From: Neoarius graeffei | Lineage: Eukaryota > Chordata > Actinopteri > Siluriformes > Ariidae | Length of the DNA stretch: 64,000 bases | Assembly: GCF_027579695.1 (NCBI RefSeq) | Contig: NC_083577.1 | Coordinates: 40,243,198 to 40,307,197 of the forward strand | Direction of reading: 5' to 3' | In this document: positions 31,281 through 63,740 of the stretch, in pieces | Position numbering within the stretch: position 1 is the first letter of the stretch | Layout: every line of letters starts with the position of its first letter | The notes under the pieces: model-generated | Databases searched by the model: none | What the model was told of the DNA's origin: nothing | What the model saw: the letters and a program-made list of their open reading frames with translations, nothing else | Position numbers and translations under genes: made by a program

Positions 31281-31693
31281 TCACGCCATCAGACTGTACA
31301 ACTCCTCTCTGGGGGGGGGGGGGGGGGGGGTAACAGGAGGACAGAGGATGAGAAGGAGCAGTAGCCTAGCCTAACAATAAGCAATACTGGACAATGTGCA
31401 ATATAATGTGCAATATAAAGTGCAATATCTCTCCTGCCGCTGCCCCCTTTCTCCCCACCTTTTTTTCCCCTCCTTCCCCCCTCCCCTCTTCCTCTCTTCC
31501 CCAAATCTTATTCTTTTATATTTCTATATGTAAATACTTAATTTATTTTAATTTATCTAGAAGTTTTCTCTATTTCTTTTCTGTTTATCTGTAATGATGC
31601 TGCTGGAATCTTAATTTCTCTGAGGGAACCTGCCCAAAGGGCTCAATAAAGTTTTATCTAATCTAATCTAATCTAATCTAATCTAATCTAATC
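31281..31693 (+). mobile_element. 3' end of a non-LTR retrotransposon with (ATCTA)n tail
   Basis: A coding-end-like stretch (catcagactgtacaac) is followed by a 20-bp G run (31311-31330), a pyrimidine-rich body, and gagggaacctgcccaaaggg then caataaagttttatc running into repeated atcta units up to 31693. The arrangement resembles Rex1/Babar-type fish LINE tails. The next element is inserted in the last TA of this tail. Confidence 0.6.
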
Positions 31694-33302
31694 TACAACC
31701 CCGATTCCAAAAAAGTTGGGACAAAGTCCAAATTGTAAATAAAAACAGAATGCAATAATTTACAAATCTCAAAAACTGATATTGTATTCACAGTAGAACA
31801 TAGACAACATATCAAATGTTGAAAGTGAGACAATTTGAAATTTCACGCCAAATATTGGCTCATTTGAAATTTCATGACAGCAACACATCTCATAAAAGTT
31901 GGGACAGGGGCAATAAGAGGCTGGAAAAGTTAAAGGTACAAAAAAGGAACAGCTGGAGGACCAAATTGCAACTCATTAGGTCAATTGCCAATAGGTCATT
32001 AACATGACTGGGTATAAAAAGAGCATCTTGGAGTGGCAGCGGCTCTCAGAAGTAAAGATGGGAAGAGGATCACCAATCCCCCTAATTCTGCGCCGACAAA
32101 TAGTGGAGCAATATCAGAAAGGAGTTTGACAGTGTAAAATTGCAAAGAGTTTGAACATATCATCATCTACAGTGCATAATATCATCAAAAGATTCAGAGA
32201 ATCTGGAAGAATCTCTGTGCGTAAGGGTCAAGGCCAGAAAACCATACTGGGTGCCCGTGATCTTCGGGCCCTTAGACGGCACTGCATCACATACAGGCAT
32301 GCTTCTGTATTGGAAATCACAAAATGGGCTCAGGAATATTTCCAGAGAACATTATCTGTGAACACAATTCACCGTGCCATCCGCCGTTGCCAGCTGAAAC
32401 TCTATAGTTCAAAGAAGAAGCCGTATCTAAACATGATCCAGAAGCGCAGACATCTTCTCTGGGCCAAGGCTCATTTAAAATGGACTGTGGCAAAGTGGAA
32501 AACTGTTCTGTGGTCAGACGAATCAAAATTTGAAGTTCTTTATGGAAATCAGGGACGCCGTGTCATTCGGACTAAAGAGGAGAAGGACGACCCAAGTGGT
32601 TATCAGCGCTCAGTTCAGAAGCCTGCATCTTTGATGGCATGGGGTTGCATTAGTGCGTGTGGCATGGGCAGCTTACACATCTGGAAAGACACCATCAATG
32701 CTGAAAGGAATATCCAGGTTCTAGAGCAACATATGCTCCCATCCAGACGACGTCTCTTTCAGGGGAGACCTTGCATTTTCCAACATGACAATGCCAAACC
32801 ACATACTGCATAAATTACAGCATCATGGCTGCGTAGAGGAAGGGTCCAGGTACTGAACTGGCCAGCCTGCAGTCCAGATCTTTCACCCATAGAAAACATT
32901 TGGCGCATCATAAAACGGAAGATACGACAAAAAAGACCTAAGACAGTTGAGCAACTCGAATCCTACTTTAGACAAGAATGGGTTAACATTCCTATCCCTA
33001 AACTTGAGCAACTTGTCTCCTCAGTCCCCAGACGTTTACAGACTGTTGTAAAGAGAAAAGAGGATGTCTCACAGTGGTAAACATGGCCTTGTCCCAACTT
33101 TTTTGAGATGTATTGTTGTCATGAAATTTAAAATCACCTAATTTTTCTCTTTAAATGATACATTTTCTCAGTTTAAACATTTGATATGTCATCTATGTTC
33201 TATTCTGAATAAAATATGGAATTTTGAAACTTCCACATCATTGCATTCCGTTTTTATTTACAATTTGTACTTTGTCCCAACTTTTTTGGAATCGGGGTTG
33301 TA
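31694..33302 (+). mobile_element. Tc1 transposon, family B, copy 4
   Basis: 1609 bp with TA flanks and the same terminal and internal motifs as the other family B copies. Full length, but its transposase is dead. Confidence 0.93.
32004..33080 (+). pseudogene. Tc1 transposase (family B), two stops
   Basis: 358 codons without indels relative to the intact copies. TGA near 32128 replaces CGA (KGVRQCK region, a C-to-T at CpG), and TAA at 32812 replaces the serine codon after PHTA. DDE motifs are otherwise present. Confidence 0.92.
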
Positions 33303-39639: not shown

Positions 39640-39993
39640 AAACATCCATGCATGATCTGTAGTCACTTATCCTGTTCTACAGGGTCACAGGCAAGCTGGA
39701 GCCTATCCCAGCTGACCATGGGTGAGAGGCGGGGTACACCTTGTACAAGTCACCAGGTCATCGCAGGGCTGACACATAGAGACAAAACAACCATTCACAC
39801 TCACTTTACAGCGACCAATTATTCTAACCTGCATGTCTTTGGGGGAAACCGGAGCACCCGGAGGAAACCCACACAGACATGGGGAGAACATGCAAACTCC
39901 ACACATAAAGGCCCTCGCCGGCTGCTGGGCTCGAACCCAGGACCTTCTTGCTGTGAGGCGACAGTGCTAACCACTACACCACTGTGCCATCCA
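39640..39993 (-). mobile_element. tRNA-derived SINE (Mermaid-like)
   Basis: Minus-strand copy with the head at 39993 (ggatggcacagtggtgtagt) and the 3' end near 39645. The core is shortened at tctttgggggaaacc. Confidence 0.85.
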
Positions 39994-40122
39994 CATATAA
40001 AAACACATACACCGTGTCCCAGAACTTTGGGGGCAACTTGATCTACTGTATGTTTAATATTAAGACACAGTGTCTTGCAAAAATATTCATCCCCCTTTGT
40101 GTTTGTCCTGTTTTGTCGCATT

Positions 40123-40388
40123 CAAAAGCCAGAGTCCCATATACGTTTTTGTACGTACGTTGGGGAGTGCCTGTTAGAGAGCACACTCTGTCTAGGCCGT
40201 CGGCATGGTGAGGTAGGGTGGCCAATTCCTTTCCTCGCCGCCTTTAACTTCCCCAGTGTTTTCACCAGGTCCCCATTCACTGCTGGGTGGACAGGAGGCA
40301 AGCCCCAGATCACCGTCCGAGGCGAGGCTCAAACCGGGGACCGTTCGTTTGGCGGTCAAGTGCTCTAACCACTTGGCCACCTCGCCTC
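40123..40388 (-). mobile_element. tRNA-derived SINE, separate family
   Basis: 12-bp duplications (ttttgtYgcatt) at 40111-40122 and 40389-40400. The head on the minus strand reads gaggtggccaagtggttaga (A box) and ggtttgagcc (B box). The body (gacggtgatctggggcttgc etc.) is unlike the Mermaid-like SINEs. Confidence 0.8.
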
Positions 40389-41029
40389 TTTTGTTGCATT
40401 ACAAGCTGGAATTAAAATTGATTTTTGGAGGGTTAGCACCATTTCATTTACACACTATGCCTACCATTTTAAAGGTGAAAGTTGTTGTTTTATTGTGACA
40501 CAAACAATAATTAAGATGAAAAAAACAGAAATCTGGAGTGTGCATAGGTATCCCCCCCCCAAAAAAAAAAGTCAGTACTTTGTAGAGACACCTTTTGCTG
40601 CAATTTCAGCTGCCAGTCTCTTGGGGTATGTCTCTATTAGCTTAGCACATCTAGCCACTGAGATTTGTGCCCATTCCTCAAGGTAAAACTGTTCCAACTC
40701 CTTTAGGTTAGATGGGTTGCGTTGGTGTACAAGTTTTCAAATCTGATTGATTAGGCCATTCCAAGACATTTAAATGTTTCCCTTTAAAGGATATGGGACA
40801 TGGATTTTTTTCTGGGTATAATTATGTATAAAGGACATAAGAAATGCCATCTAAATCACTGCAGGGCGTCAAAAATGTGAAAATCATCACATTATTCAAG
40901 TTTTTTTATACATCAGCGTAAAACAAGGATTCGTTAATGAGCTAGGTGGTCACGTGACCCGTGACGTACAGTAACAAAAACTTTCCAAGGAGCCAGCGCT
41001 TGGGAATCTAATGTAAACAGGTTACTGAA

Positions 41030-41223
41030 ATGGACACCATCGACAGTGATATTCCCGATGTTTCACAGAGATGTGAAGTTAGACCCTATCAATTCGAACT
41101 GATAGCTGGAAATTCACATGAACATAGATCTTGTCTTTACTCTGACGGGTCAGATGATTCTGAGAGTGAGAGTTCATTCAGCCCTCATGAAACTGAAAGT
41201 GGTCGGCTCGATAACACTTCCTG
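41030..41223 (+). CDS. 65-codon exon-like frame inside Kolobok-like element, copy 2
   Basis: Near-identical to the frame at 9875-10068: MDTIDSDIPD start, RPYQFE, GSDDSESESS, ending at a ctg|gtaagtt splice donor. Conservation of the frame and donor in two separately inserted copies suggests it was coding in the source element. The downstream exon was not identified here. No function is assigned. Confidence 0.4.
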
Positions 41224-41503
41224 GTAAGTTAAAAACAATTCTGCTCAAAGGCTAATGATCTGTTGAAAGAAGTATTATTTTTGTATCATACATTGAAAGT
41301 TCATCATAGATCTAGCTAAAGTCCGTTGCAAGCTAGTTATTTTTTTTGCTGATATTTTTCGAGATTGATTGAGATACAATGCTTCCAGAGTCTGAGATGA
41401 AAACATTCAAAATGGCGAAACGAGTCAGAATTATGATAATCAATAATTGATACACCCAAAATTATAATACTAATCCTTACCTCGGCTTTCAGTCGCTTAG
41501 CGC

Positions 41504-41592
41504 AGAGGTCTTTAATAGGGGGGTCGCGAAATCGCACCGGATCACTCATATCAACAAAAATATTCCTGCCCTGTCCCCTGGCCTCCATCACG
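41504..41592. mobile_element. End fragment of the BED-type hAT family
   Basis: cagaggtcttta, ggggggtcgcg and atatcaacaaaaatattcct match the right end of the hAT at 57814-63732 (its 63640-63732) in inverse. Only about 90 bp remain. Next to it at about 41602 is cagggatgc..cggtggatgcc, resembling the end of the element at 14893. Confidence 0.7.
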
Positions 41593-41674
41593 CAGGGATG
41601 CAAACAGCGCGCCTTTCGGTGGATGCCGCCTTTTTCACGGCTGAATCGCGCAGATCCGATTTTTTAAAAAAAAT

Positions 41675-41846
41675 AGCGATATTAATTCATGAAACATGAA
41701 GTATAAGGATGAGAAAAAAACAGTTTAAATCGGGAAGCTGCGCACATTTGTACAGCCTGGCGCAAATGTGCGCAGCTTCCCGATTTAAACTGTTTTTTTT
41801 CTCATCCTTATACTTCCTGTTTCCTGTTTCATGAATTAATATCGCT
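41675..41846. repeat. 172-bp inverted repeat (hairpin)
   Basis: Arms 41675-41750 and 41763-41846 are inverse copies with a 12-bp loop. The right arm has about ten extra bases (ctgtttcctg partial repeat). Nested within the Kolobok-like element. Confidence 0.9.
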
Positions 41847-41869
41847 CAGTACCTGAGTATTAATGTTGA

Positions 41870-42128
41870 AAGAATCCTCAGTGAAATGGTCCGAACACAG
41901 TTTGTGGGAAACAGTAGGTGCAAAGTTTTTTCAACAGGTGTTCTGTAAAGTTATCCTACCTCTTGGATTTGTCCTACCAAGCCTACTGTGCATGCGCGAA
42001 GCCTACTGCGCATGCGCAGGTGAGCCCACACTTTCCTCAGCTTCGGGTCCTTGGGGAATGCAAAAAAAACTTACTCCAGGGCATTTCCCATTGGAATTAT
42101 TGCAACCATAAGCAGCACAATACACCAT
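41870..42128 (-). pseudogene. THAP-domain remnant of Kolobok-like transposase
   Basis: The minus-strand ATG at 42128 gives MVYCAAYGCNNS (the C-x4-C pair). After a 1-base shift KDPKLRKVWAHL follows, and further down CSDHFTEDSF (the C-x2-H pair). These are the landmarks of a THAP zinc finger, which Kolobok transposases carry. The catalytic domain is absent. At least two frame breaks. Confidence 0.65.
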
Positions 42129-42681
42129 GATGTCCAATGTATGATGTCCAATGTACTTTAAAGACTATTAAAAACAATTTTCTTGTCATCCACTTCTCCA
42201 ATCTACCCGCTTGTGCTGTGCCCGAAAGTTTTTGTTACGTATGATCACGTGACAGCGGCTCTTCCGGTTGCAAAAAATGCATATCGGAAGTCGAGCAGAA
42301 ATGCCATATAATCATCACGAATATAATGATTTTGCTGAATTTAATAGATGATTTTGTATTTGTTGATGCAATTAATTCATATTTTTAATGGAAAGAAACT
42401 GATATAGCGTGCTTTTATGTTTCATGTCCCATATCCTTTAAACCACTCCAGTGTAGCTTTAGCAGTATGTTTTGGGTCATTGTCCTGCTGGAACATGACC
42501 CTTCGTCCCAGTCTCAAACCTCTGGCTGGCTCAAACAGGTTTTCCTCCAGAATTGCCCTATATTTAGTGCCATCCATCTTTCCTTCCATCCTGACAAGCT
42601 TTCCTGTCTCTGCAGATGAAAAATATCCCCACAACATAATGCTGCCACCACCATGCTTCACTGTAGGAATGGTGTTCTCAG

Positions 42682-43206
42682 ATCGCAGCAGAAAAATTTA
42701 CTATTAAAACCAGTTGTTAAAACAAAGTGTGGTGAAGCAGCTTTTAGCTACTATGCAGTACAGCTATGGAACCAACTGCCAGAGGACATTAAAAATGCTC
42801 CTGCTGTTGGCAGCTTCAAATCTAGGTTAAAGACCAAGCTGTTTTCAGATGCTTTCTGTTAAATAATTAATATTTTTACATTTTTTATAATCTTTTTCTC
42901 TGCATGTTTTAAATTTATTTTAACTTTATTCTATTTTATTCTGCTAGGTTTTTTTTTCTCTTTCTCTTTCTTTTTCTCCTTTTTCTTTTTGGCATTTTAA
43001 TATTTTATTTCTACTATTGTTTAATTCTTATTATTTTCTTTTAATTCTTTTAATTCTTTTAATTAATTATTTTAGAATAAAGATAAAATTATTTTATGTA
43101 ATTTTATTTCTCTATTGTTTACTGTTTTTGTTTTTACTTCTGTAAAGCACATTGAACTGCCATTGTGTATGAAATGTGCTATATAAATAAACTTGCCTTG
43201 CCTTGC
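42682..43206 (+). mobile_element. L2 LINE 3' end (C-terminus and UTR)
   Basis: Encodes only the last about 60 residues of the RT protein (CGEAAFSYYAVQLWNQLPED, ending 42862). It then has the L2 3' UTR ending gtgctatataaataaacttg with ttgcc repeats. A short duplication ctcag flanks it. 5'-truncated and inserted in Tc1 family D. Confidence 0.85.
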
Positions 43207-43561
43207 CTCAGGGTGTTGGGTTTGCGCCACACATGGCATTTCCCATGATGGCCAAAAAGGTCAGTTTTAGTCTCATTTGACCAGAGAATCTTCTTCCATG
43301 TGTTTGAGGAGTCTGCCACATGCTGTTGGGAAAATTCCAAATGTGTTTTTTTTCTGCCCACTCTTCCATAAAGCCCCACTCTGTGGAGTCTACGGCTTAA
43401 AGTGGTCCTATAGACAGATACTCCCATCTCCACTGTGGATCTTTGCAGCTCCTTCAGTGTTATCTTTGGTGCTTTTGTTGCATCTCTGATTAATGCCCTC
43501 CTTGCCCGGTCTGTGAGTTTTGGTGGGTGGCCTTCTCTTTTCAGGTTTGTAGTGGTGTCAT

Positions 43562-46500
43562 TTGTTGTCAGGTCAGGGGATAGTTCTCTTGCTACTGCTA
43601 TCATTGTAACACAGTACAACCTGCCGCAGTGGACAAGTGGTCGGCATCTAAACCAGCTCCCCCACCAGCCTAGTGCTGGTGAGGAGGGTGGCATGTCACC
43701 CTGCAGGACAAAAAGCAAGACCTGTCAAAGGGCGGATGAGCTCCTCGTGAGCCAACGGCCAACATGCACCAAGCGCCTGTGGAGCGCTCAGGGCACAGAT
43801 GGACAAATGCATTCTGTTGGCCATCCACTGCATCCTGTCTTATCTCTGGCCGTCTCAACTACGTCTTGCTGCTGGGTCCAGATACTTCAGGACGAGAGAG
43901 TGAGGCTGATGCTGTGCAACTCTCCCTCACTTTAATCAAAGTCACGCGCATGTCATGACTTCATCCCTTATCACATTACCCCTTCATCCCCATCTACTCT
44001 TCTCAAGTCCTGTGGCGATGGATTCATGGCGAAGCGACAGGTGTGGACTCACTGGCAGTCATAGTCACAACTCTACACGTAGGTGGACCAGGCCATATGG
44101 TCGTTTTGCAGTGAATGAGACAGCGCTGGAATTCGGCAGCCCCCTGGTCGACGAAGCAGCCCTCTTCAGGACAGCACTGCTTCCCCCCATAGCCTGGGGA
44201 AGGGACTAGAAAAGGTGTCCTAAACATTGCCTGTCTCACTCTCTCCTGGCCAGCATGCCGCAGCTAGCGGGTGTCTCATATCAGCGGCAAGAAGAGAACA
44301 AATAAGTCTAAATTACCTAAAGTGACCTCGGTCACTCTTGGCGCATGGAATGTGCGTACCCTCTTGGACCGTGCCGGCTCTAATCGACCTGAGAGAAGGA
44401 CAGCCCTCATTGCCTGCGAACTAGCCTGTTACAATGTGGAGATTGTAGCACTTAGTGAGACTCATCCAGCAGAGGAAGGACAACTGACTGAGAAGTCTGC
44501 CGGCTATACATTCTTCTGGATCGGGCACGGATCAAACGATCGATGTGAAGCAGGCATTGGCTTTGCTATTAAGTCCAATTTGGCCAATAAGCTGGCAGTT
44601 CCCCCTGAGGGGATAAACGATTGCCTGATGACTGCCTGCATGCTGCTTCCCATGAATAGATTTGTCACATTGATTAGTGCCTATGCCCCTACCATGACAA
44701 ACCCTGACGATGTGAAGGAAGGATTCTACGAGGATCTCAAGAACGCCATTGCTGCTGTACCTAGATCAGATAAGCTCATCATTCTCGGCAGTTTGAACCC
44801 CCGTGTTGGCAGAGACCATGAGGCATGGGAAGGTGTGCTGGGGAAGCATGGCGTTGGCAAGTGTAACAGCAATGGACTCCTCCTACTTGAGACCTGTGCT
44901 GCCTTTGATCTTCTCATCATCAACTCAGCCTTCCGTCTTCCGACCTGTAACAAGATGTCGTGAATGCACCCCCGTTCCAAGCATTGGCATCTCTTGGACT
45001 ATGTCATCACCAGGCAGAGGGACAGACAAGATGTTAGGGTCACCAAGACCATGTACGGAGCTGAATGCTGGACTGACCATCATCTATTGATCTCCAAGAT
45101 GAATCTTTGCATCACTCCACCAAGAAGGCCTCAAGGTGTCAGAGTCCCCAAGCGGTTGAATGTCTCCAAACTTAAGAATGATCTCATCAAGCATGAACTG
45201 ACTGAGGAGCTTGATAAGAATTTATTAACTCCCAACACAAACGCAGAGGCTGATGTGGAAACCCAGTGGGCGCGTTTTCATGATACTGTTTACGCTACTG
45301 CCTCCGTTGTTGTCGGTCCTACTACCCAAAAACACCAGGATTGGTTTGATGACAATAATAGTCACATCATGTCCATACTGGAGGAAAAATGCCGTCTCCA
45401 CAGAGCACTTCTCAATGATCCCTCCTCTTCCTCTAAGAAAGCTGTGCTCAGAGAGGCCAAGCGAGCTGCCCAATCCGAGTTACGTCGTATGCATGACAAA
45501 TGGTTCTGTATGAAGGCCAATGCCATTCAGGCCTATGCAGATAGTAATGATATGAAAAACTTCTACAGCGCCCTAAAGACCGTGTACGGTCCCACTTCGT
45601 CTGGAACGTCCTCTATCCTCAGTGCCGACGGGAACACAATCATCTCGGAGAGGGAGAAGATCCTTGAACGCTGGTCAGAGCACTTCAACAGCATCCTCAA
45701 CTGCCCATCCACCATAAATGAAGAAGCCATAGCAAGATTGCCACAAGTCCCAGTGAACGAGAATCTCGCTGATCCTCCTACTGAAGCGGAAGTATCAAAA
45801 GCCATCAAGTCCATGTCCAGTGGGAAGGCACCTGGTGCTGACTCCATTCCAGCAGAAATTTATGCTTCTGGAGGACCTAAACTGATCGAGACCCTCATAA
45901 GCCTGTTCAATCTGATGTGGTCTCAAGAAAGGCTCCCACAGGACTTTAAAGACGCTTCCATAGCCCACCTTTACAAGCGCAAAGGGAACAGATTTGTATG
46001 TGATAACCATCAGGGCATTTCCTTGCTGTCCATCGCTGGAAAGATCCTGGTCCACATTCTGCTTAATCGCCTCATCAAACACCTGGAACGCAGCCTGCTA
46101 CCTGAAAGCCAGTGTGGATTCCGTATGGGACGAAGTACCATCGACATGATCTTTGCAGCTCGGCAACTCCAAGAAAAGTGCAAGGAGCAGAACGTTGGTC
46201 TGTACACCACATTCGTGGACCTAACCAAAGCGTTTGATTCTGTTTGCCATGACAGGTTGTGGAAGATCATGTCCAAGTTTGGTTGCCCTCGCAAGTTCAT
46301 TGCAATGGTCCAGCAATTTCATGATGGCATGAACACGAGAGTACAGGACAATAGGGAGTTCTCCCAGTCGTTTCCCATCACCAATGGAGTTAAGCAGGGC
46401 TGCGTGCTGGTCCCCACTCTATTCAGCATGGTGTTCTCAGCCATGCTGTCAGACGCCTACCGCGATGGCGACATCGGTGTCGGTTTTCGTTATCGTACGT

Positions 46501-47579
46501 ACAGAAAACTCTTCAACCCTTGGAGGCTGCAAGCAAGGACAAAAGTTCACGAAGAGACAGCTCGTGACTTCCTCTTTGCTGATGATTGTGCACTAAACGC
46601 TAGTTCAGAGTTAGAAATGCAGCGTAGCTTGGACCGGTTAGCTAAAGCCTGTGATGACTTCAATCTCACAATTTCAACCAAAAAGACTGAGGTCCTCCAT
46701 CAACCAGCCCCTGCAGCTCCATATATAGAGCCCCCACATCACCGTCAGTGGTCAGAGTCTAACAGCGGTAGACAAGTTTGTATACCTTGGCAGCATTCTC
46801 TCATGCTCTGCTAATATTGATGAGGAAGTGGCCTACAGAATCACGAGAGCTAGCACTGCCTTTGGCAGGCTTAAGGACAAGGTATGGGGGCGTAGAGGAC
46901 TGAGCCTTGACACCAAGCTCAAAGTCTACAGAGCAGTAGTTCTGCCATCTATGCTATATGCCTGTGAGACTTGGACCGTATACAGTCGTCATGCCAAGCA
47001 GCTCAACGCCTTTCATATGAAATGTCTCAGGACCCTACTCCATGTGACGTGGCGCGATAAAGTCCCAGACACCGAAGTGCTCCAGCAGGCTAAGATGGAG
47101 AGCATCTATGCCATCCTTATACGCTCTCAGCTTCGATGGGCTGGTCATATCTACCGCATGGACGACTGTCGTCTCCCTAAAAGGCTTCTCTATGGCGAGC
47201 TGTCCACAGGCAAGCACTGTCTTGGTAGACCGAAGCTACACTACAAAGACACTTTGAAGGCATCCCTCAAGCTTTGCAGCATTCCTTATATATCTTGGGA
47301 AAAGTCCACTGAGGACCATCCTGTCTGGTGCTCCCTTATAATATCTGGCGTGACTGCCTTTGAGGAGAGGTGCACCAGGGAGAAAGAGCTACGTCGGCAG
47401 AAAAGGAAAAAGACTGATAGTTCCACCTCCACCCTTGGCTCAGACCTGCACATCCCATGTCCCCACTGCAACAGACTTTTCAAGGCCAAGATTGGCCTAA
47501 TCAGCCATCTTCGCATTCACCCCACCCCCCAGTGATTCATAGAAGTCATGGTCATCTTCGCACGTGAAGGACAAACATC
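43562..47579 (+). mobile_element. RTE-like LINE (CFDP2-like), near full length
   Basis: Exact 11-bp duplications agtggtgtcat at 43551-43561 and 47580-47590. 4018 bp. It starts with a 5' region of about 700 bp (43562-44262), carries endonuclease and RT, and ends shortly after the stop. Inserted in the HTH-coding part of Tc1 family D. Confidence 0.88.
44271..47535 (+). pseudogene. LINE endonuclease-reverse transcriptase with C-terminal zinc finger
   Basis: Endonuclease of the craniofacial-development-protein-2-like type: LGAWNVRTLLD, ALSETHP, SAYAPT, then GSLNPRVG where GDFNARVG is usual, so the catalytic D is replaced by S. TGA at 44961-44963 stands where TGG is expected before MHPRSKHWH. RT spans 44964-46814 with VDLTKAFDSV, GVKQGCVL and LFADDCAL intact. 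An extra C in the run at 46731-46735 shifts the frame before KFVYLGS-like sequence. The rest (46828-47535) ends in a C2H2 finger CPHCNRLF..HLRIH. Inactive, but only a few lesions. Confidence 0.85.
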
Positions 47580-47926
47580 AGTGGTGTCATATTCTTTCCA
47601 TTTTGCTATAATGGATTTAATGGTGCTCCCTGGGATATTCAAAGTTTGGGATATTCTTTATAACCCAACCCTGATCTACTTCTTCACAACTTTGTCTCTG
47701 ACCTGTTTGGAGTGCTCCTTGGTTTTCATGTTGCTTGCTTAGTAGTGTTGCAGAGTCAGGGTCCTTCCAGAGCAGGGTGATTTATACAGACATCATGTGA
47801 CAGATCATGTGACACTTTGACTGCACACAGGTGGATCTTAATCAACTAATTATGTCACTTGTGAAGTGAATTGGTTGGACCAGCTCTTATTTAGGGGTTT
47901 CATATGAAAGGGGGTGAATACCTATG

Positions 47927-48691
47927 GGTCATTCCATGTCAATTCACACAAATGCCCCAAACCTCCCCAGTGACACCTCTTCAATTTGCCTTATTTTTAT
48001 TTTCTTAGTGCCTTATGATGTCAAATGAAAGAATCCAAAATTTTAGCTTCCTAGCTCGAACGTTTTTTTGAGTTAGGGCCCTTCAAAGTTTGGGTGCCAC
48101 GCCCACTTTTGGGGTCCGGGAATTGCACACTTAATTTGCAAGCATTTTTGGAGGCCCATATTTTTTGTTCTAAGGGGGATATAGACCTGTAAATTGCTAT
48201 ATCTATGTATTCTGGCCCTGTCTATCAGATTCTGCACCTAAAAATAGCATAGGTTTACTAACTTTATAGATATTAACCCCTTAAAAGTGGATTTTTTAAT
48301 GACAATTTTTTTTTACATTTTGGGGGTCTATATCTTGGAAAGTTTTTATGTTGATGGCGTTTCAACTGATTTATCATCATATTTGGGAACTCTACTGTGT
48401 ACTTAGAGAGTTTCAGGGCACTCAGAGCTTTGGTGGGGGTACAGGAGGGCCCCAAATATGGCTTCGGGACAAAATTACCATTTGGTACGTCCTACTTCAG
48501 GCCATTAGTTGGCCATGTGGGCACATGATGACTGGAATGAGCCTTTAACCCTATCAACAGACACCTTTTATCAAACTTTTAAGCCAATAAAAACTTTGAT
48601 TATCCAACTCTTTCCATATAAACTAAGCATTTGTATATGGTACTGTTTTTGCATATTTTCTGAAAAATCCTAAGTTCGGAAAGTAGGTCAA
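47927..48691. repeat. Left arm of long terminal inverted repeat
   Basis: Landmarks shared with the right arm: agtgacacctcttcaatttg, cacgcccacttttgggg, ggccccaaatatggcttcgg, cccacatggcc and aaagtaggtcaa at the inner edge. It differs from the right arm by scattered substitutions and small indels. Confidence 0.9.
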
Positions 48692-49122
48692 CTATTGTTT
48701 TGACTGCCTATTCATGTTTAAGGTAGTAAAAGCATGCCCATATAGTGATTTTAATCTATGGGAAGATTATTTATACCCAATACCCCATTAGTTATATTGA
48801 CAATTACAAGGGATAAACCCTTTCCCGGCTGTTTCACGATGCTGTTTTTTTTTTTTACATTTGACACCTTTCCCTGTATCCAACCAAACTCTGACCACTA
48901 TACACTTAATAGTTAAATGCATCTTTCAAACAGGAAAGGGAAAGATGCAAACAAGGGGATGATCCCAAGAAAAACATCCTAGTTGCTTTACTACATTTGT
49001 TCTGACATCCAATCTGGAAGTTAAACCTAGACTCATCAGGTTTTTTTTTTTTCAAGAAAAGGGGAAGGGGCCCCTCGCCACTCATGTGGGGAAAATTAGC
49101 ATATCAATTAGTAAAAAGGGGA

Positions 49123-49128
<6 letters not shown>

Positions 49129-49185
<57 letters not shown>

Positions 49186-49196
49186 ATATATATATC
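49129..49196. repeat. (TA)n microsatellite
   Basis: About 30 TA units adjoining the 3' end of the LINE fragment at 49197. Another TA run (atatatatat) lies at its other end near 50673-50682. The stretch 48692-49128 holds nothing recognised. Confidence 0.95.
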
Positions 49197-50672
49197 CTTC
49201 TCACCCCCGGCGGAGGGGTGGTATCCATGTCATCCTCAAGCTTGGGTCCTCTACCAGAGGCCTGGGAGTTTGAGGGTTCTGCGCAGTATCTTCGATGTTC
49301 CTAGGACTGCGCTCTTCTGGACTGAGGCTTCAGATGTTGTTCCTGGGATTTGCTGGAGCCACTCTCCCAGTTTGGGGGTTACTGCCCCAAGTGCCCCCAC
49401 TAGCACGGGGACCACGCAACCCTTGACCTTCCACATCCGTTCCAGCTGCTCTTTCAACCCTTGATACTTCTCAAGTTTCTCATGTTCCTTCTTCCTGATG
49501 TTGGCGTCAGCTGGGATCGCCACATCTTTCACCACCACCCTCTTCTGCTCTTTGTCCACCACCACTATGTCCGGTTGGTTAGCCAGGATCTGTTTGTCAG
49601 TCTGGAAGCTGAAGTCCCACAGAACCTTGGCCCTGTTGTTCTCAGCCACTTTCTGTGGTATGGCCCATTGGGACTTGGGTACTTCTATTCCATACTGGTT
49701 GCAGATGTTCCTGTATACTATCCCAGCCACTTGGTTGTGCCTCTCCATGTACGCTGATCCAGCTAGCATCTTACACCCTGCTACTATGTGCTGGACTGTT
49801 TCAGGGGTTTCTTTGCACAGTCTGCATCTTGGGTCTGATCTACTCTGGTAGATCCTGGCCTTTATGGCTCTTGTGCTTATGGCCTGTTCTTGTGCTGCCA
49901 TGATTAGTGCCTCTGTGCTGTCTGTCAGTCCTGCATTATCCAGCCACTGGTAGGATTTCTTGATATCAGCCACTTCCTCTATCTGACGGTGGTACATGCC
50001 ATGTAGGGGTTTGTCTCTCCAGGTTGTCTGTTCCTCCTCCTCCTCTGCACTCTCATCATGGTTCTGCTGCCTGAGACATTCACTTAGCAGTTCATCCTTT
50101 GGGGCCATCTTTCTGATGTATTCTCAGATTTTCGATGTTTCATCCTGGACCGTGGTCTTGATGCTCACTAGCCCTCGGCCTCCCTCTTTCCGCTTAGTGT
50201 ATAGTCTCAGGGTGCTGGACTTGGAGTGGAACCCTCCATGCATGGTGAGGAGCTTTCTAGTCTTGATATCTGTGGCTTCTATCTCCTCCTTTGGCCAGTT
50301 TATGATACCAGCGTGGTATCTGATGACTGGTAGTGCGTACATGTTGATGGCTCGGACCTTGTTCTTACCATTCAGCTGACTTTTCAGGACCTGCCTTACT
50401 CTCTGGAGGTATTTGGCTGTGATTGACTTCCTTGTGGCCTCTTCATGGTTTCCATTAGCCTGTGGGATGCCAAGGTACTTGTAGCTGTCTTGGATATCAC
50501 CTATGTTGCCCTCTGGTAGGTCAATCCCCTCAGTCCGGATCATCTTGCCTCTCTTTGAGACCATCCGGCCACACTTATCCAATCCGAATGACATCCCTAT
50601 GTCATCGCTGTAGATCCGGGTGGTGTGGATCAGCGAGTCTATTTCTCGCTCATTCCTGGCATACATATATAT
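49197..50672 (-). mobile_element. Dong/Rex6-like LINE, 5'-truncated, in a (TA)n tract
   Basis: A minus-strand fragment holding the end of RT and the C-terminal domain. The 3' end abuts (TA)n at 49196 and the truncated 5' end abuts a TA run at 50673. Target choice in TA/TAA microsatellites is known for Dong-type elements. Confidence 0.75.
49251..50672 (-). pseudogene. LINE RT end plus restriction-like endonuclease, one stop
   Basis: Opens just after the RT catalytic box (YARNEREIDSLIH), then SFGLDKCGRMV and YKYLGIPQ (thumb). The C-terminal domain has the CCHC knuckle CRLCKETPETVQHIVAGC and a PD-(D/E)xK-type endonuclease (QPDIVVVDKEQKRVVVKDVA). This C-terminal endonuclease marks R2/R4/Dong/Rex6-like LINEs and cuts the target site. 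TGA near 50121 (KI|EYIRK) is the only stop in an otherwise continuous frame. Confidence 0.8.
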
Positions 50673-50682
50673 ATATAATTTT

Positions 50683-51098
50683 ATTATAATCATTATAAAC
50701 ATGAAGGGGGCATGGGTATTCATGAGGAACTCTATATATTTTTGATACATACCTTTCTTCTATACAATTGTTTTTAAAGTATTGATCATAAAGACATCTA
50801 AATGTTAACAGTTTTATGCTATGTGTTCATTACTTACAATTATTGGTTGTTTCAATATCAAAGTCTTGAGCATATGGCTCAAACCCACTGGTATTTTCAT
50901 GAACAGTTAGCATTAAAAAAATCAAAGAGATATCTGTAAACAAATGTTTCACTTTTGTAACAATTATTTTGTATACAAAGTAAAATTAATTAGTAACAAA
51001 CTGTGACATCACACAAAGGCTCCCAAGCTGAGTATTTGCTTGCTTATAAATATCTAAACTGAATTCACAGAGAAAAGAGGATTGTTTCAATAAGGTCA
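50683..51098. other. AT-rich interior of long-TIR element
   Basis: Nothing recognised. Confidence 0.4.
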
Positions 51099-51372
51099 TT
51101 GTCGGGAGGGGAAGACACCAATATTCGGTGTCAGTTTGTTAACCAAAAAATCCCCTGCTCATGGAAGATGGAACAAAGTACTTGCAAGATTGGTTTGTCA
51201 CTAAATGATGACTGCCATAAAGTTGTATATTCTAGGCTGGGTGCCATTTCAAGACGTTATATGTCGTGTAAATGCGCCAGAGATTCAAGGTCGTAGTGCT
51301 CGGCATTATAAACTTGTTGCGGTTGATGTAGAAAGAATTGAGATGCTTCTTCCAAAGTACATTCATGCTTAA
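51099..51372 (+). pseudogene. Unidentified protein relic in long-TIR element
   Basis: A frame EDTNIRCQFVNQK..CHKVVYSRLGA runs to about 51250. After a single-base shift it continues FQDVICRVNAPEIQGRSARH..DVERIEMLLPKYIHA to TAA at 51370-51372. The joined piece reads like a natural C-terminus. I do not recognise the family. Because it lies inside the inverted repeats it may be the last exon of this element's own transposase, or an unrelated passenger. Confidence 0.35.
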
Positions 51373-51714
51373 CTGTCAGTGTCAGTCAGCAAGCCTGGTT
51401 ATGGTTTTATATTGAATTGAATCGTTTTGTATTGTGCCTACATGTATTTTACAGCAGTAAATGGCGTCCATGCCTCATTAAAATTGTCTGATCTGATCAC
51501 ATGACTAATTTATTCTTAAGTAAGTGTAGTTTAAGTTACGTGTGTGTGTACAGTGTGCAAAGGGTTAATAAATGTAAACTGTCAGTTTATATATTCAAAT
51601 ATATGTGTTCAGTGATATTATCCTTGTTTTAATCTTACTATTTTATAATTTGAATGTGTTTTAGTACCTTTTGATTTGAAGTGGCAGTTAAAACAATAGC
51701 TGACCTGGTTAATA
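51373..51714. other. Possible 3' part of the unidentified gene
   Basis: AT-rich, no coding or repeat signal recognised. Confidence 0.35.
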
Positions 51715-51729
51715 ACCTGATATGGTTAA

Positions 51730-52336
51730 AAATCTTGGTGTTTTCATTGACAGCGAGCTAAACTTTGACAGTCACATGAAAGCAATCACTAAATCGTCAT
51801 TTTATCACCTAAAAACATTTCCAAACTAAGAGGACTTGTGTCAAAAAAATTATCTGGAAAAACTTATACATGCCTTCATCTCTAGTAGGGTTGATTACTG
51901 CAATGGCCTTTTCACAGGCCTGCCAAAAAAGACCATCAAACGACTTCAGCTGGTTCAAAATGCAGCGGCTAGGGTTCTCGCACGAACAAAAAGAACAGAG
52001 CACATTATTCCAATTCTAAGGTCCCTTCACTGGCTTCCAGTAAGCTACAGAATTGACTTTAAAGCATTGCTGCTGGTGTACAAATCTCTAAACGGTACAG
52101 GGCCCAATTACCTCTCTGATATGTTGCAGCGGCCTAACCCAATCAGATCTACCAGATCGCAGCAGCAAAATTTACTGGTAAAACCTGTTGTTAAAACAAA
52201 GTGTGGTGAAGCAGCTTTTAGCTATTATGCAGTACAGCTATGGAACCAACTCCCAGAGGACATCAAAAATGCTCCTGCTGTTGGCAGCTTCAAATCTAGA
52301 CTAAAGACCAAGCTGTTTTCAGATGTTTTCTGCTAA
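51730..52336 (+). pseudogene. L2 reverse transcriptase C-terminus
   Basis: Starts at VKNLGVFIDSELNF (the RT thumb entry) with a stop and frameshift near 51825. From 51836 it is open: SRVDYCNGLF, LQLVQNAAARVL, LHWLPVSYRIDFK, LWNQLPEDIKNAP. It ends normally at 52336. The RT catalytic part is lost through 5' truncation. Confidence 0.85.
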
Positions 52337-52901
52337 CTGATAAATATCATCATTTTTACATGTTTTAAACTTTACTTAACTTTTATTAGGTTGCAATGCA
52401 AAGCATTGCAACTATTGTTCTTCTACGTGTTTCTTCTTCTTCTTCTTCTTATATTTTTTCTTATATTTATTATTCCTACGCAAATTTCGATTTCGAATAA
52501 CTCAATAACCGTACGTCGCACACAGACAAACAATATATCAAAATGTGCGGCTCGATCGGACTCACTATGCTATTACTTTTCTCTACAGAATACGATTTTT
52601 TCGCGACGTAGTCGCGAAAAAATCGCCCAAAAAAACCCCATTCATTTCTATGGAATTAATTGAAAAAAAAAGCACTTTTTCAAACATCCGCTGCTCTGGC
52701 ATGCTTTCAGCTAGAGACGTGATTCAAACTCTAAAACGTAGGAAAACTTCTCCTCTGTGGATCTGGCATTCAACTTTTCTGCTAGGTTCTACACTTTCGG
52801 ATCAGTCCCGGCTCAAACGCCATGTGGGTTCCGGGAGAAAATCCGGCTTTTGAATGGGTGTCTATTGCGTTACACACCAGTGCAGCTCGTTTACTTAGAG
52901 T

Positions 52902-54249
52902 TAGAGGTCTGTGCGGGTCGGATTTTTCAGTCCCGCTCCCGCCCGCGCCCGCAAAGAATTATGATTTTCAGTCCCGTTCCCGCCTGCGCCTGCCATATTT
53001 TGTCCCGCTCCCGCCCGATGCAGATGTTCGCGTTATTTCTCAAGAAAGTTCTTGTCTTGACACAGCGTGATGGTGCCCCGCCCCCTACTTTGAGTGGATT
53101 TGAGCATAAATATCTACAGCTCACGTTCGTTATTATTTACCTTCTTTCTGAATTCAGCATGTAGTGTCTCTAATAATAATTAGTGCTGCCAAGCAATTAA
53201 AATATTTAATCGCAAATCACACATTTTTATCACATGAGAAACCATTGTAATTCTCTGATCAGCATAAAAAAGTGAATGGGCTTGTTTTGTACTAATGGTG
53301 TGTTTCGTGTTTTTTTTTTTTTTTTTATTGCAAAGCAGAGCTAGTAAGAGAAGTGAATTGATTTACTTGTTGAGTTAGTCTACAACTTTAATCAGAGAGA
53401 CAGATTACACAGTGACGGTAGGCTTGACTCAATGCTATCCCAGAAATCCTTCCTGTAATATGCAAATTTAGCCGCCTCTGATTGGACAGCCAAATTTGCA
53501 TATTACAGGAAGGATTTCTGGGATAGCATTGAGTCAAGCCTACCGTCACTGTGTAATCTGTCTCTCTGACTAAAATTGTAGACTAACGCAAGTAGTAAAT
53601 CAATTCACTTCTCTTACTAGCTCTGCTTTGCAATAAAAAAAAAAAACACCCACCATTGGTACAAAGCAAGCCCATTCACGTTTTTATGCTAATCAGAGAA
53701 TTACAATGGCTTCTCATGTGATTAAAATGTGCGTTTCGCGATTAAGTATTTTAATTGCTTGACAGCACTAATTATTGTTAGATACACTACATAACTCAAT
53801 ATGTAACTCAAGCAGTAAATCACTTCATTCACGCTTCTTTTGCTAGCTGGGTGTGAACTGCGAGTTATTAGAGTGATCAAAGGATTTCCCGTTAGGGTGA
53901 TCAATGGCAAATTTAAGATGCTATTCCTCACTCAATCTGGCAATCTGACTCTCTCTGTAAATTTAGGCATCTTAAAATGTTTTTATTAATGCCAAATAAA
54001 ATATCCAGCACAAATTATATATGATAGACACAAATTAATAATTTATAAATTTTAGTTAGCGGGACTGCAGCTTATCACTGCTCCTGCCCGCGCCGCATAT
54101 GTGTACTCCCGCTCCCGCCCGCGAGCGCATATGTGCACTTCCGGTCCCGCCCGCGCCCGCAATGAGCTTTCAAAATTTGTCCCGCGCCGCACTGCTTTGC
54201 GGCGGGTCCCGCGAGTCCCGCGGGACTCCCGCGGGAGTGCAGGGCTCTA
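52902..54249. mobile_element. hAT-like MITE with 8-bp duplication and GC-rich ends
   Basis: cttagagt at 52894-52901 and 54250-54257. The ends TAGAGGTCTGTGC and the inverse of TAGAGCCCTGCAC are imperfect inverted repeats. Next to both ends are strongly GC-rich blocks made of cccgctcccgcccgcgcccg-like units. Neither arm carries a coding frame. A palindromic element is nested inside at 53160-53791. Confidence 0.7.
53160..53791. repeat. 632-bp near-perfect palindrome (foldback element)
   Basis: The left arm 53160-53469 and right arm 53492-53791 are inverse copies over about 300 bp with few mismatches, around a 22-bp centre. Landmarks are tagtgctg/cagcacta at the outer part, aagcagagctagtaagagaa mid-arm and taatatgcaaattt at the inner edge. 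No coding frame. It is probably a foldback MITE, and any transcript would form a long hairpin. Confidence 0.93.
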
Positions 54250-55060
54250 CTTAGAGTGTAGAGAGCTTGAAAAAATAGCTCAAACTTTCTCGCTTAAACT
54301 GTGGTTTCAGCCACAAATTTCACTCTACAGAGATAAATTTCTCAAAAGTAGTAGTAAAACTTGTCCTGATTCACACAATGTGTGTACCTAAATGATAGGA
54401 TTTACAGTTTTTGAATGAGAAGCCTCAAACTGAGGAGAGTGCAGCCGAGAGGCCTCGTTGACACCCATTATAAACGTGACAGAAAAGTCACTCATATTTA
54501 ACTCGCTCTAGTGTCCTCATTTTTAACACTACAGACAAAAAATTACATCAGTGTATTCAGGAGACCCTTCTAGCACTCACTGTGAAAGAACTTTGTGAAT
54601 AGCTGCTTTCGTTGTCGAGTTATTTGTTGTTCGAGGCCTGCTCCTGAGCAAAAAACAGCAGACACCTGACAAAATCTTGTGTGTCTTAACGCTCCTGCTC
54701 AGGCCCGTCGCCATGCCGACTGGGGCCAGTGAGGGAGCAGAGAGAGGGGGGGCTGCTGTCTCAAGCACACACATAAATCATGGCATTGTAGCTTCATAGC
54801 AGGTCACACATTCACGGCCAGCGAACATGCGTGACCTAATTGCTTCGCGCACTGCATCCTCTCACAATTTCCCCAGGGGAATTGTCCGGTCTAGTTCCAT
54901 TTTATTCTGCTGTTTTTAATGAACTTTCTCTCTTCTTCCCCCTTTATTTAATGTAATTTTATTTTCTATTGTTTACTGTTTTGCTTTTACTTCTTTAAAG
55001 CACATTGAACTGCCACTGTGTATGAAATGTGCTATATAAATAAACTTGCCTTGCCTTGCT

Positions 55061-55813
55061 TTGACCTACTTTTCGGATTTTTCAGAAAATATGCAAAAAC
55101 AGTACCATATACAAATGCTTAGTTTATATTGAAGGAGTTGGATAATCAAAGTTTTTATTGGCTTAAAAGTTTGATAAAAGGTGTCTGTTGATAGGGTTAA
55201 AGGCTCATTCCAGTCATCATGTGCCCACATGGCCAACTAATGGCCTGAAGTAGAACGTACCAAATGGTAATTTTGTCCCGAAGCCATATTTGGGGCCCTC
55301 CTGTACCCCCACCAAAGCTCTGAGTGCCTTGAAACTCTCTAAGTACACAGTAGAGTTCCCAAATATGATGATAAATCAGTTTAAACCCTATCAACACAAA
55401 AACTTTCCAAGATATGGACCCCTGAAATGTCAAAAAAAAAATTTGTGTCATTAAAAAAATTCACTTTTAAGGGGTTAATATCTCTAAAGTTAGTAAACCT
55501 GTGCTATTTTTAGATGCAGAATCTGATAGACAGGGCCAGAATACATAGATATAGCAATTTACAGGTCTATATCCCCCTTAGAACAAAAGATATGGGCCTC
55601 CAAAAATGCTTGCAAATTAAGTGTACAATTCCCGGACCCCAAAAGTGGGCGTGGCACCCAAACTTTGAAGGGCCAAAATTCAAAAAACGTTCCAGCTAGG
55701 AAGCTAAAATTTTGGATTCTTTCTTTTGACATCATAAGGCACTAATAAAATAAATATCAGGCAAATTGAAGAGGTGTCACTGGGGAGGGTGTGTGAATTG
55801 ACATGGAATGACC
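55061..55813. repeat. Right arm of long terminal inverted repeat
   Basis: Inverse of 47927-48691, beginning ttgacctacttt at the inner edge and ending gacatggaatgacc. Confidence 0.9.
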
Positions 55814-56018
55814 CCTATGCACACTCCAGATTTCTGTTTTTTTTTCATCTTAATTATTGTTTATGTCACAATAAAACAACAATTTTCACCTTTAAAGTGG
55901 TAGGCACAGTGTGTAAATGAAACGGTGCTAACCCTCCAAAAATCCATTTTAATTCCAGCTTGTAATACGACAAAACAGGACAAACAGAAAGGGGGATGAA
56001 TACTTTTGCAAGACACTG

Positions 56019-56026
<8 letters not shown>

Positions 56027-57937: not shown

Positions 57938-59546
57938 TACAGTGGGGCAAAAAAGTATTTAGTCAGCCACCAATTGTGCAAGTTCTCCCACTTAAAAAGA
58001 TGAGAGAGGCCTGTAATTTTCATCATAGGTACACTTCAACTATGAGAGACAGAATGGGTGGAAAGAATCCAGGAAATCACATTGTAGGATTTTTAATGAA
58101 TTAATTGGTAAATTCCTCGGTAAAATAAGTATTTGGTCACCTACAAACAAGCAAGATTTCTGGCTCTCACAGACCTGTAACTTCTTCTTTAAGAGGCTCC
58201 TCTGTCCTCCACTCGTTACCTGTATTAATGGCACCTGTTTGAACTCGTTATCAGTATAAAAGACACCTGTCCACAACCTCAAACAGTCACACTCCAAACT
58301 CCACTATGGCCAAGACCAAAGAGCTGTCAAAGGACACCAGAAACAAAATTGTAGACCTGCACCAGGCTAGGAAGATTGAATCTGCAATAGGTAAGCAGCT
58401 TGGTGTGAAGAAATCAACTGTGGGAGCAATTATTAGAAAATGGAAGACATACAAGACCACTGATAATCTCCCTCGATCTGGGGCTCCACGCAAGATCTCA
58501 CCCCATGGGGTCAAATTGATCACAAGAACGGTGAACAAAAATCCCAGAACCACACAGGGGGACCTAGTGAATGACCTGCAGAGAGTTGGGACCAAAGTAA
58601 CAAAGGCTACCATCAGTAACACACTACGTCGCCAGGGACTCAAATCCTGCAGTGCCAGACGTGTCCCCCTGCTTAAGCCAGTACATGTCCAGGCCCAACT
58701 GAAGTTTGCTAGAGAGCATTTGGATGATCCAGAAGAGGATTGGGAGAATGTCATATGGTCAGATGAAACCAAAATAGAACTTTTTGGTAAAAACTCAACT
58801 TGTCGTGTTTGGAGGAGAAAGAATGCTGAGTTGCATCCAAAGAACACCATACCTACTGTGAAGCATGGGGGTGGAAACATCATGCTTTGGGGCTGTTTTT
58901 CTGCAAAGGGACCAGGACGACTGATCCGTGTAAAGGAAAGAATGAATGGGGCCATGTATCATGAGATTTTGAGTGAAAACCTCCTTCCATCAGCAAGAGC
59001 ATTGAAGATGAAACGTGGCTGGGTCTTTCAGCATGACAATAATCCCAAACACACCGCCCGGGCAATGAAGGAGTGGCTTCGTAAGAAGCATTTCAAGGTC
59101 CTGGAGTGGCCTAGCCAGTCTCCAGATCTCAACCCCATAGAAAATCTTTGGAGGGAGTTGAAAGTCCGTGTTGCTCAGCGACAGCCCCAAAACATCACTG
59201 CTCTAGAGGAGATCTGCATGGAGGAATGGGCCAAAATACCAGCAACAGTGTGTGAAAACCTTGTGAAGACTTACAGAAAACGTTTGACCTCTGTCATTGC
59301 CAACAAAGGGTATATAACAAAGTATTGAGATGAACTTTTGTTATTGACCAAATACTTATTTTCCACCATAATTTGCAAATAAATTCTTTAAAAATCAGAC
59401 AGTGTGATTTTCTGGATTTTTTTTTCTCATTTTGTCTCTCATTGTTGAAGTGTACCTATGATGAAAATTACAGGCCTCTCTCATCTTTTTAAGTGGGAGA
59501 ACTTGCACAATTGGTGACTGACTAAAAACTTTTTTGCCCCACTGTA
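57938..59546 (+). mobile_element. Tc1 transposon, family C, structurally intact
   Basis: 1609 bp from tacagtggggc to gccccactgta with TA edges. The outer about 120 bp of the two ends are almost identical. The motif agtatttNgtcanccac recurs inside each end (IR/DR layout). It holds one full open transposase frame. It is inserted in the hAT, so it is younger than that copy. Confidence 0.95.
58306..59328 (+). CDS. Tc1 transposase (family C), full-length ORF
   Basis: 340 residues, exactly the usual Tc1 length, with no stop or shift. Paired-like HTH region at about residues 1-110, with [12 protein letters not shown] and GAPRKI (AT-hook-like), and a second HTH with TISNTLRR. The DDE domain has D in [12 protein letters not shown] in [10 protein letters not shown] and E in LNPIENLW at normal spacing, plus [13 protein letters not shown]. 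The start MAKTKEL is the first ATG after the left inverted repeat. Terminal repeats, direct repeats and ORF all look intact, so this is the best candidate in the window for a mobile autonomous element. Activity is not shown by sequence alone. Confidence 0.95.
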
Positions 59547-62045: not shown

Positions 62046-63740
62046 GCGCCTGAACAGCCCCTCGAGTGCCTCCAAATGCGCGAGAATTGCATGCATTATG
62101 GGGGGTGAGAGCACAGCAGAATCGCCCAGCTCATCAACTGATGGAAACATGGAAAACGTTTCCTGTCCAATGCGCTCCCTCCATCATTTGATTTTTTTTG
62201 ATAAAGCCTTCCATTTTGTCATAGAGGTGAATTGCAACTGTATTGCGGCCTTGCATCGAGCTGTTCAGTTTGTTCAATTCAGCAAAAATGTCAACCAGGT
62301 AGGCAAGCGTGGTGAGCCAAACGTTGTCATTGAAAAGTGCAGCCAGGTCTGTTCGCTTTTGCATAAGTAAAAACTCCCGAATGGATTTGCGCAATTCCAA
62401 CACACGTGACAACACTGTTCCACGTGAAAGCCATCTCACTTCGGAATGGTACAGTATAGGAGCGCAGTGTGTTGTTCTCCCTCAGCAGCGCAGAGGTTTG
62501 AGAAGAGGCGCGTTTGCAAAGCGCTCTTCTTCACTAAGTTGACCACTTTCACCACAGCATCCACGACTTCTGCCAACTCCGCGCTCATGTCTTTGGCAAC
62601 AAGTGACTCCCTATGTAACATACAGTGGGTCCAGATTACTTGCGGAGATACATCTCGAACCAGCGCGATAAGTCCGCTTTTTAAACCGGCCATGGCTCTT
62701 GCACCGTCCATACACAGCGCAATACATTTTGACCATGGGATGTCATTTTCTCTGAAGAAATTGTCGATTACTTTGAAAATTTCGGAACTGGTTGTGCGTT
62801 GAGGAAGGCACTTGCAAAACAAAAATTCCTCTTTCATTTCCTGATTATCTACAAAGCGTACAAACGCCAGGAGCTGGGCGTCATTGGCCACATCTGTAGA
62901 TTCATCCAACTGCAGTGCAAATGCATCTGCCATCCTGAGTTTCTCAAGCAGTTGTGCCCTTACATCTGTTGCCATATCATCTATCCGACGAGCTATGGTT
63001 GTATCAGAGATGGGGATAGTTTTCAGTTTATTTATGTCAATATCGCTGCCATCCATTGTTTGACACATGTCGGTTACTACAGGCATTATTAAGTCCTCTC
63101 CAGCTGTGTATGGCTGTTTCTTCTGGGCAATCCTCAGGGCCATTTGATAAGAGCATTTCAAAGCTAGCTCACCAACTTTGGCTGATTTTCTTATCAGTGT
63201 CTGTTGACCTCAGAGGGATTTAAGATTAGCTTGGAAGTATTCAATGGGTTTGTCTTTTAAGTGGCTGTATGTTGTCTCCAAATGACGCTGCAGCTTCGAT
63301 GGCTTCATAGATTGGTTTGAAAGAACAGCGGAGCAAATGACACACATTGGAAATTCAATGCCATCTCTCTCCTTGAAGGTAAAGCCAAACTTCATATAAT
63401 TATCTGAGTATTTTCGGGTCTTTTCTTGTTTGCGCTTACCCTTAGCTCTGACATCAGCAACAACTTCTTCGCCACTTTCAGTCGCGTTTTCGTTCTTTTC
63501 AGAGGTGGATGGCATTGCTACTGTGCTTGCTGATTTGTTTGGTCGAATTACAAAACGATCTATTTTTCAGTAAGAACAAATATGTGGGTTTAACCCGGTT
63601 ACAGTGGGTAGGCTAAGTTAGCTAACGGAGGCCAGGGGACAGGGCAGGAATATTTTTGTTGATATGAGTGATCCGGTGCGATTTCACGACCCCCCTGTAG
63701 TACCTCCGCGACCCCCCTGTTGAAGACCTCTGCTCTAGGT

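Follow-up and report, generated by a model that had tools for sequence, protein, structure and literature searches.

A composite DNA transposon that most likely gathered its inserts before landing in a Tc1 element of Neoarius graeffei

The stretch studied here covers 64,000 nucleotides of the Neoarius graeffei genome (C9:40243198-40307197, hereafter the window). Between 40066 and 56020 it holds one Tc1 transposon of family D, about 1.57 kb long and on the minus strand, kept as six co-linear pieces. This copy was split by a short interspersed element (SINE), an element with a TTAA target, an L2, a long interspersed element (LINE) and a 7.9-kb DNA transposon with long terminal inverted repeats (TIRs). 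The last of these very probably belongs to a composite lineage that took in an L2, a LINE fragment, a Helentron-like element and a hAT-like element successively, stayed mobile, and most likely landed whole in the Tc1. An earlier note, made from the letters of the window, had read these layers as insertions nested six levels deep. The transposon content of the window would by itself suggest a ray-finned fish. The junction searches covered the whole genome (2.34 Gb), and for each query the best 40 candidates were scored, so that the numbers of spanning loci are lower bounds. Since self-comparison of the window gave no second family D copy, the alignment that the earlier note had proposed as a check needed the whole genome.

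Six pieces of one Tc1

The pieces were recognized with the transposase encoded at 58243-59328 as tblastn query. All matches lie on the minus strand and follow each other in order: amino acids 24-77 at 47726-47568, 78-194 at 43538-43215, 197-280 at 42688-42437, 279-293 at 40788-40744 and 310-361 at 40730-40575. These co-linear matches, with a best E value of 2.6e-27, and an HTH_Tnp_Tc3_2 domain in the fourth piece (E 5.2e-13) identify a Tc1-type transposase. Piece 1 (40066-40122), which holds one copy of the SINE target duplication, forms the outer portion of one TIR; its pairing with the opposite TIR is at 92%. Piece 2 (40401-40787) carries the inner part of that TIR and the transposase C-terminus (amino acids 310-361 and 279-293), and piece 3 (42442-42681) the transposase core (amino acids 197-280). 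Piece 4 (43212-43561) corresponds to amino acids 78-194 and piece 5 (47591-47926) to amino acids 24-77. Piece 6 (55820-56020) is the other TIR and pairs with TIR stretches in 40061-40548. The two TIRs pair with 92-93% identity; the dinucleotide flanking them is TA on the right and CA on the left.

We compared the pieces with 30 Tc1 relatives: 29 loci fetched by similarity to 42437-42676 (L022-L050) and one further locus (L002). The pieces that flank an insert in the window directly adjoin each other in 30 relatives at the site of the TTAA-target element, in 28 at the L2 (L2a), in 28 at the LINE and in 24 at the long-TIR element. In the same order, they were separated in 0, 2, 0 and 1 relatives, and 0, 0, 2 and 5 could not be assessed. 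The SINE is missing in 29 of the 30. Where the pieces adjoin, their overlap equals the target duplication in 30/30 relatives for the TTAA-target element, 26/28 for L2a and 23/28 for the LINE. At the long-TIR site the overlap is 6 bp in 16 of 24 relatives, 4 bp in 7 and 3 bp in 1; the duplication in the window, CTAT, itself grows to 6 bp (CCTATG) when matching end bases are counted. The earlier note was thus right that a single Tc1 persists here in ordered pieces of one orientation and that it is interrupted by five inserts. Each insert has a target duplication, and genome relatives have the uninterrupted sites. The co-linear alignment to other family D copies, named beforehand as a check, came out as it had expected.

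The composite insert and its copies elsewhere

The fifth insert, a composite DNA transposon of 7889 bp (47926-55814, unstranded), begins with the TIR GGGTCATTCC and is flanked by the CTAT duplication. Its left TIR occupies about 47926-48731, and its right TIR runs from 55814 to 55062 and resumes at 51706-51659, beyond an L2; the two match over about 0.8 kb. Because the right TIR resumes in this way, the left TIR represents the uninterrupted sequence. The element in the right TIR is what we take to be an L2-type LINE (L2b, 51707-55061, plus strand; level 3), bordered by TGACCT at 51701-51706 and 55062-55067 and itself split by a Helentron-like element; its 168-amino-acid frame matched no Pfam family. 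The second level 3 insert, a layer absent from the earlier note, is a LINE fragment on the minus strand (about 49196-50665) within a TA microsatellite (49128-49195), with a zf-RVT match (E 3e-4) under the curated cut-off. Its placement in the microsatellite (49128-50690) looks as if targeted.

The level 4 element (52388-54894, plus strand) was inserted at TT, has a palindrome near its 5' end and a 3' stem-loop, both of which fold as hairpins, and ends in CTAG. We call it Helentron/Helitron2-like because the TT target and the terminal hairpins fit the Helentron/HINE features described in PMC4067079. According to that source, canonical Helitrons end in CTRR and a proto-Helentron in CTAG; in its CTAG end the element thus differs from Helentron, HINE and Helitron2 and fits both of these. 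Matches to its 5' end are clustered within a few hundred kilobases at C3:53.85-54.57M and C5:23.38-23.67M, and five further loci (L056-L060, on C7, C3, C8, C3 and C4) carry repeated blocks of it; these clusters are possibly tandem arrays derived from the Helentron-like element.

Level 5 is a hAT-like element (52902-54249, plus strand). The 8-bp target duplication CTTAGAGT lies on both sides (52894-52901 and 54250-54257), next to short imperfect TIRs (TAGAGGTCTG/CAGGGCTCTA), as is expected of hAT. It has no frame of at least 150 amino acids, and no search for a transposase family was made with it. Inside it lies a palindrome (53159-53792, unstranded) with about 89% arm identity by BLAST, which the earlier note had counted as a foldback element forming the sixth layer. 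All 40 scored matches to the left edge of this palindrome (query 53020-53300), the window included, span the junction with the hAT-like sequence; the 39 from outside the window have 94-99% identity and are spread over many chromosomes. The palindrome therefore multiplied with the hAT-like family, belongs to it, and forms no separate layer; a target duplication was looked for at its edges and none was seen. The right flank of the palindrome (53793-54070) resembles its right arm, with a score reached by 2 of 500 shuffles. Past the first seed no resemblance of flank to arm was found (117 of 500 shuffles), and the idea that the palindrome is a relative of its own flank was superseded by the genome search with its edge.

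The L2, the Helentron-like element and the hAT-like element each have relatives with an empty site. TGACCT occurs once, in long-TIR sequence lacking the L2, in L071 and L072; the TT site without the Helentron-like element is found in L068, L069 and L070; and a single CTTAGAGT marks the empty hAT site in L062 and L063. To this depth the nesting path of the earlier note, Tc1 > long-TIR element > L2 > helitron-like element > hAT, is confirmed, and only its last step, from the hAT-like element to the palindrome, has to be dropped.

The junctions inside the composite recur at other loci, and the sets of loci that carry them are nested (L2 8 > LINE fragment 7 > Helentron-like 5 > hAT 3), so that every stage is kept in the genome. 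Among the 40 candidates for the left long-TIR/L2 junction, 8 span it, 27 are long-TIR sequences that stop at the junction, on many chromosomes, and 5 match the L2 only. The LINE-fragment junction is spanned by 7 of 40, all within the 8 L2-bearing loci; 25 are long-TIR only and 8 LINE only. One of the 25, at C18:5.21M, has the L2 and no LINE fragment at the junction. For the left L2/Helentron junction, scoring of 40 candidates gave 49 match rows, and the 5 loci that span it all fall within the 7 with the LINE fragment. The right hAT junction is spanned at 3, the window included, all within these 5; the remaining 37 candidates for the latter match the Helentron-like element only.

All four non-window loci with the Helentron-like junction were fetched, and each holds the long-TIR block, ending on the same bases as the window copy. 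Two of them are also the two best other matches for the hAT/palindrome query. The copy at C14:54.56M has the hAT-like element and aligns over 7957 columns at 96.9%, and that at C1:18.02M is rearranged and enlarged to 10492 bp, carrying the hAT-like element, a further incomplete stretch of Helentron-like sequence and additional inserts. The copies at C1:23.05M and C8:45.99M are without the hAT-like element and have a single CTTAGAGT at its position. C8:45.99M has an additional insert of its own; at this locus and at C1:18.02M (L063 and L064) the further private inserts include a repeat resembling 39651-40002 of the window. The target duplications are perfect and 4 bp long in four of the five block copies (CTAT in the window, and AATT, TGCT and ATTG). 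Constant TIR ends at five loci, with such duplications at four, are the marks of a cut-and-paste DNA transposon. Levels 3 to 5 have thus travelled as a unit. The join between the Tc1 and the composite, on the other hand, is spanned by the window locus alone among the 40 candidates scored.

Origin of the composite and rival explanations

A stepwise history is suggested by the inner junctions common to several loci, by the empty sites, by the identical ends at five loci and by the 4-bp duplications. A long-TIR transposon with TIRs of about 0.8 kb would have gained an L2 first, next a LINE fragment, after it a Helentron-like element and finally a hAT-like element holding its palindrome. It would have remained mobile after each gain, leaving copies of each stage in the genome. 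The composite would then have landed whole in the Tc1 and duplicated CTAT, arriving ready-made, as opposed to being built at the window locus and exported. We regard it as very likely that a DNA transposon of about 3 kb (obtained by subtraction) grew in this way to 7.9 kb through four unrelated mobile elements, was mobile throughout, and left its intermediates in one genome. Constant termini and duplications of fixed length fit a cut-and-paste mechanism with a transposase that works on the TIRs and is probably provided in trans; such an enzyme would require the TIRs and not the interior in order to move the composite.

The divergences agree with a late arrival. The eight L2-bearing copies differ pairwise at 12-38 of about 1710 sites, and the five Helentron-bearing copies have Kimura two-parameter (K2P) distances of 0.002-0.044 per shared segment outside the hAT-like element. 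In its left arm and body, the window composite is 0.8-1.1% away from the four other copies. The Tc1, in contrast, is 6.0-8.6% divergent from 29 relatives in a star-like tree, from which L032 was left out as too short, and so it can be the old host of a younger arrival. L2a (42682-43206), which is identical over 142 bp at 26 other loci, is probably very young. Most likely, then, the Tc1 was already old when a young composite, ready-made, and a very young L2 entered it, and levels 3 to 5 are most likely older than the composite/Tc1 join. The earlier note had taken all six layers as insertions at this locus; the palindrome came with the hAT-like element, and the block with its inner layers is present at four other loci, so there is no need to suppose that these layers were added at this locus, and most likely they were added elsewhere. 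Its expectation that inner layers should be the younger ones by divergence failed as well, since the arms of the innermost palindrome differ more (K2P 0.066) than those of the long-TIR element (0.036). The palindrome arms resemble the Tc1 TIRs in this (0.052 and 0.069), in contrast to the 0.8-1.1% between the window composite and its four other copies, and dating of the layers by arm divergence was abandoned.

Several observations weigh against this history. At C1:23.05M there is no clean 4-bp duplication, and the two flanks of that copy share a repeat. The flanks at C14:54.56M and C1:18.02M match each other through a shared repeat; the C1:18.02M flank looks like the C14 target without an interruption, which we take to reflect two insertions into one repeat family. 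The hAT segments of the three carriers differ by K2P 0.013-0.119, above the rest of the block, which is not fully explained. In the tree of L2 copies, which is weak apart from the pairing of C4 and C12, C1:18.02M (with hAT) pairs with C1:23.05M (without it) at 39% support; in favour of the history, 7 of 9 informative sites adjoining the hAT-like element do unite its three carriers. The same tree does not place C18, which has no LINE fragment, at the base and groups it with C4 and C12 (support 64). Copies L068-L072 were fetched without their left ends. A transposase gene was not identified: of the frames of at least 150 amino acids in the long-TIR block, three gave zf-RVT or nothing, the search stopping short of one more (49006-49464), of smaller frames and of partners, and the block may still hold a transposase remnant. 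Finally, any carrier, the window included, could be the site where the composite was built.

This last point underlies an alternative in which a long-TIR element entered the Tc1 early, levels 3 to 5 (the palindrome excepted) were added at the window locus, and copies were exported at each stage. We consider this unlikely and give it some weight because the shared junctions leave the direction of copying unfixed. In its favour, the window copy is among the three most complete and the Tc1 host is, by divergence, older than the ladder of stages. Against it, there are 3 known hAT carriers and 8 known L2 carriers, and the window is a single one of each; if carriers were exchangeable, its chance of being the building site at the L2 stage would be about 1 in 8. 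Moreover, C4 and C12 have derived sites in common that are missing in the window copy (96% support); the window was therefore not the donor of both, and copies other than the window acted as donors at least once.

Spread of the block by segmental duplication or gene conversion could account for the missing clean duplication at C1:23.05M and for the flanking repeat common to C14 and C1:18.02M. It is very unlikely in view of five copies with identical first and last TIR bases, four of them within perfect and differing 4-bp duplications, and of the 27 long-TIR matches on many chromosomes that stop at the L2 junction. Moreover, an all-against-all comparison of the flanks (up to 600 bp per side, 80 bp for the left flank at C8) gave no further matching pair between copies. 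Least probable of all, in our judgment, is an assembly artefact in which repeats were collapsed or wrongly joined into a chimera. The region is largely repetitive and was judged from the assembly alone, which would favour such an artefact, but the Tc1 resumes at the duplicated bases after its inserts, relatives have the empty sites, and the parts of the composite are assembled in an unchanged order at other loci, at a divergence of a few percent.

Nested transposons and the onward movement of a nest are already known; a complete ladder of stages is unusual. A study on rice describes Mutator-like transposable elements carrying the Tourist-like miniature inverted-repeat element Os0548, with 107 highly similar copies, 40 intact and 67 partial, that have it at the same site (PMC3903597). 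As in our case, a transposon that held another insert kept multiplying; it held one nested element, whereas in this animal genome a single lineage took in four inserts of different classes in succession, and all stages are present. REANNOTATE (PMC2672092) and TinT (PMC3014933) treat nesting as time order. The composite resembles the stacks treated there in that elements lie within elements with an outside-in order, which holds inside the composite. It differs in its outermost join, of composite and Tc1, which most likely postdates the inner ones, and the level of nesting therefore need not give the local order of events. A narrowly phrased literature search brought up, in the portions of the sources it returned, no evident report of a nest that travelled through several steps; this argues only weakly that none exists.

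It is common to treat the depth of nesting as a local stratigraphy. At this locus such a reading would give six local events along one path, against what was most likely a single arrival for the inner stack. If travelling nests are common, ordering events at a locus by nesting level overcounts them and can reverse their order. The preserved ladder also offers a natural series in which to study how large a load a DNA transposon tolerates while still mobile, and for correcting ages based on nests.

The other four inserts and neighbouring repeats

Insert 1 (40123-40388, minus strand) is presumably a tRNA-like SINE. Its target duplication (TTTTGTCGCATT/TTTTGTTGCATT at 40111-40122 and 40389-40400), TTTTGT(C/T)GCATT, is alike at 11 of 12 bases, and matches to the SINE alone occur on many chromosomes. 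The SINE/Tc1 join is spanned by the window and by L002 (C24:13.09M), where the SINE has the same base, strand and duplication as at 40111-40400 of the window; L002 shows none of the other inserts. The two SINEs differ at 14 of 258 sites and the two Tc1 copies at 118 of 1367 (Fisher p 0.105); the latter have 1 derived site in common and 44 and 52 private ones. Either common descent or two hits at a hot spot may explain the shared SINE, which was not used in the argument above.

Insert 2 (40788-42437, unstranded) has the TIR AGGATATGGGACATG and lies between TTAA at 40784-40787 and 42438-42441. A palindrome (41675-41846) lies inside it, and a second copy at 8833-10312 has a different middle. The middle of insert 2 (41482-42190), which is unlike that of the second copy (9089-9617) and has, besides its own palindrome, a stretch resembling 63627-63710, is possibly another nest. 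Its join with the Tc1 is spanned by the window and by one other locus at 86%. At L073 (C5:102.93M), a TTAA-target element lies at the same TTAA (40784 in the window) of another family copy, 86-89% alike; this may be either parallel insertion or sharing.

Insert 3, L2a (plus strand), is the tail of a 5'-truncated LINE, presumably of the L2 type, with CTCAG at 42677-42681 and 43207-43211. Insert 4 (43562-47579, plus strand) is a LINE with both an endonuclease and a reverse transcriptase frame (Exo_endo_phos, E 4.5e-4, under the curated cut-off, and RVT_1, E 1.4e-29), and its 11-bp target duplication AGTGGTGTCAT lies at 43551-43561 and 47580-47590. Among the 40 candidates scored for each, the Tc1/LINE and Tc1/L2a joins are spanned at the window locus only.

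A scan against Rfam gave nothing at the gathering threshold, and viral contigs searched with three patterns gave zero matches. Elsewhere in the window, a 1.6-kb Tc1 (19392-21001) is inserted in a copy of another Tc1 family (18457-21697), of which 847-2461 is an uninterrupted version. The copies of the inserted Tc1 (4709-6307, 19392-21001, 22891-24504 and 31691-33302) are 96-98% alike, and two of them have an open frame of 361 amino acids.

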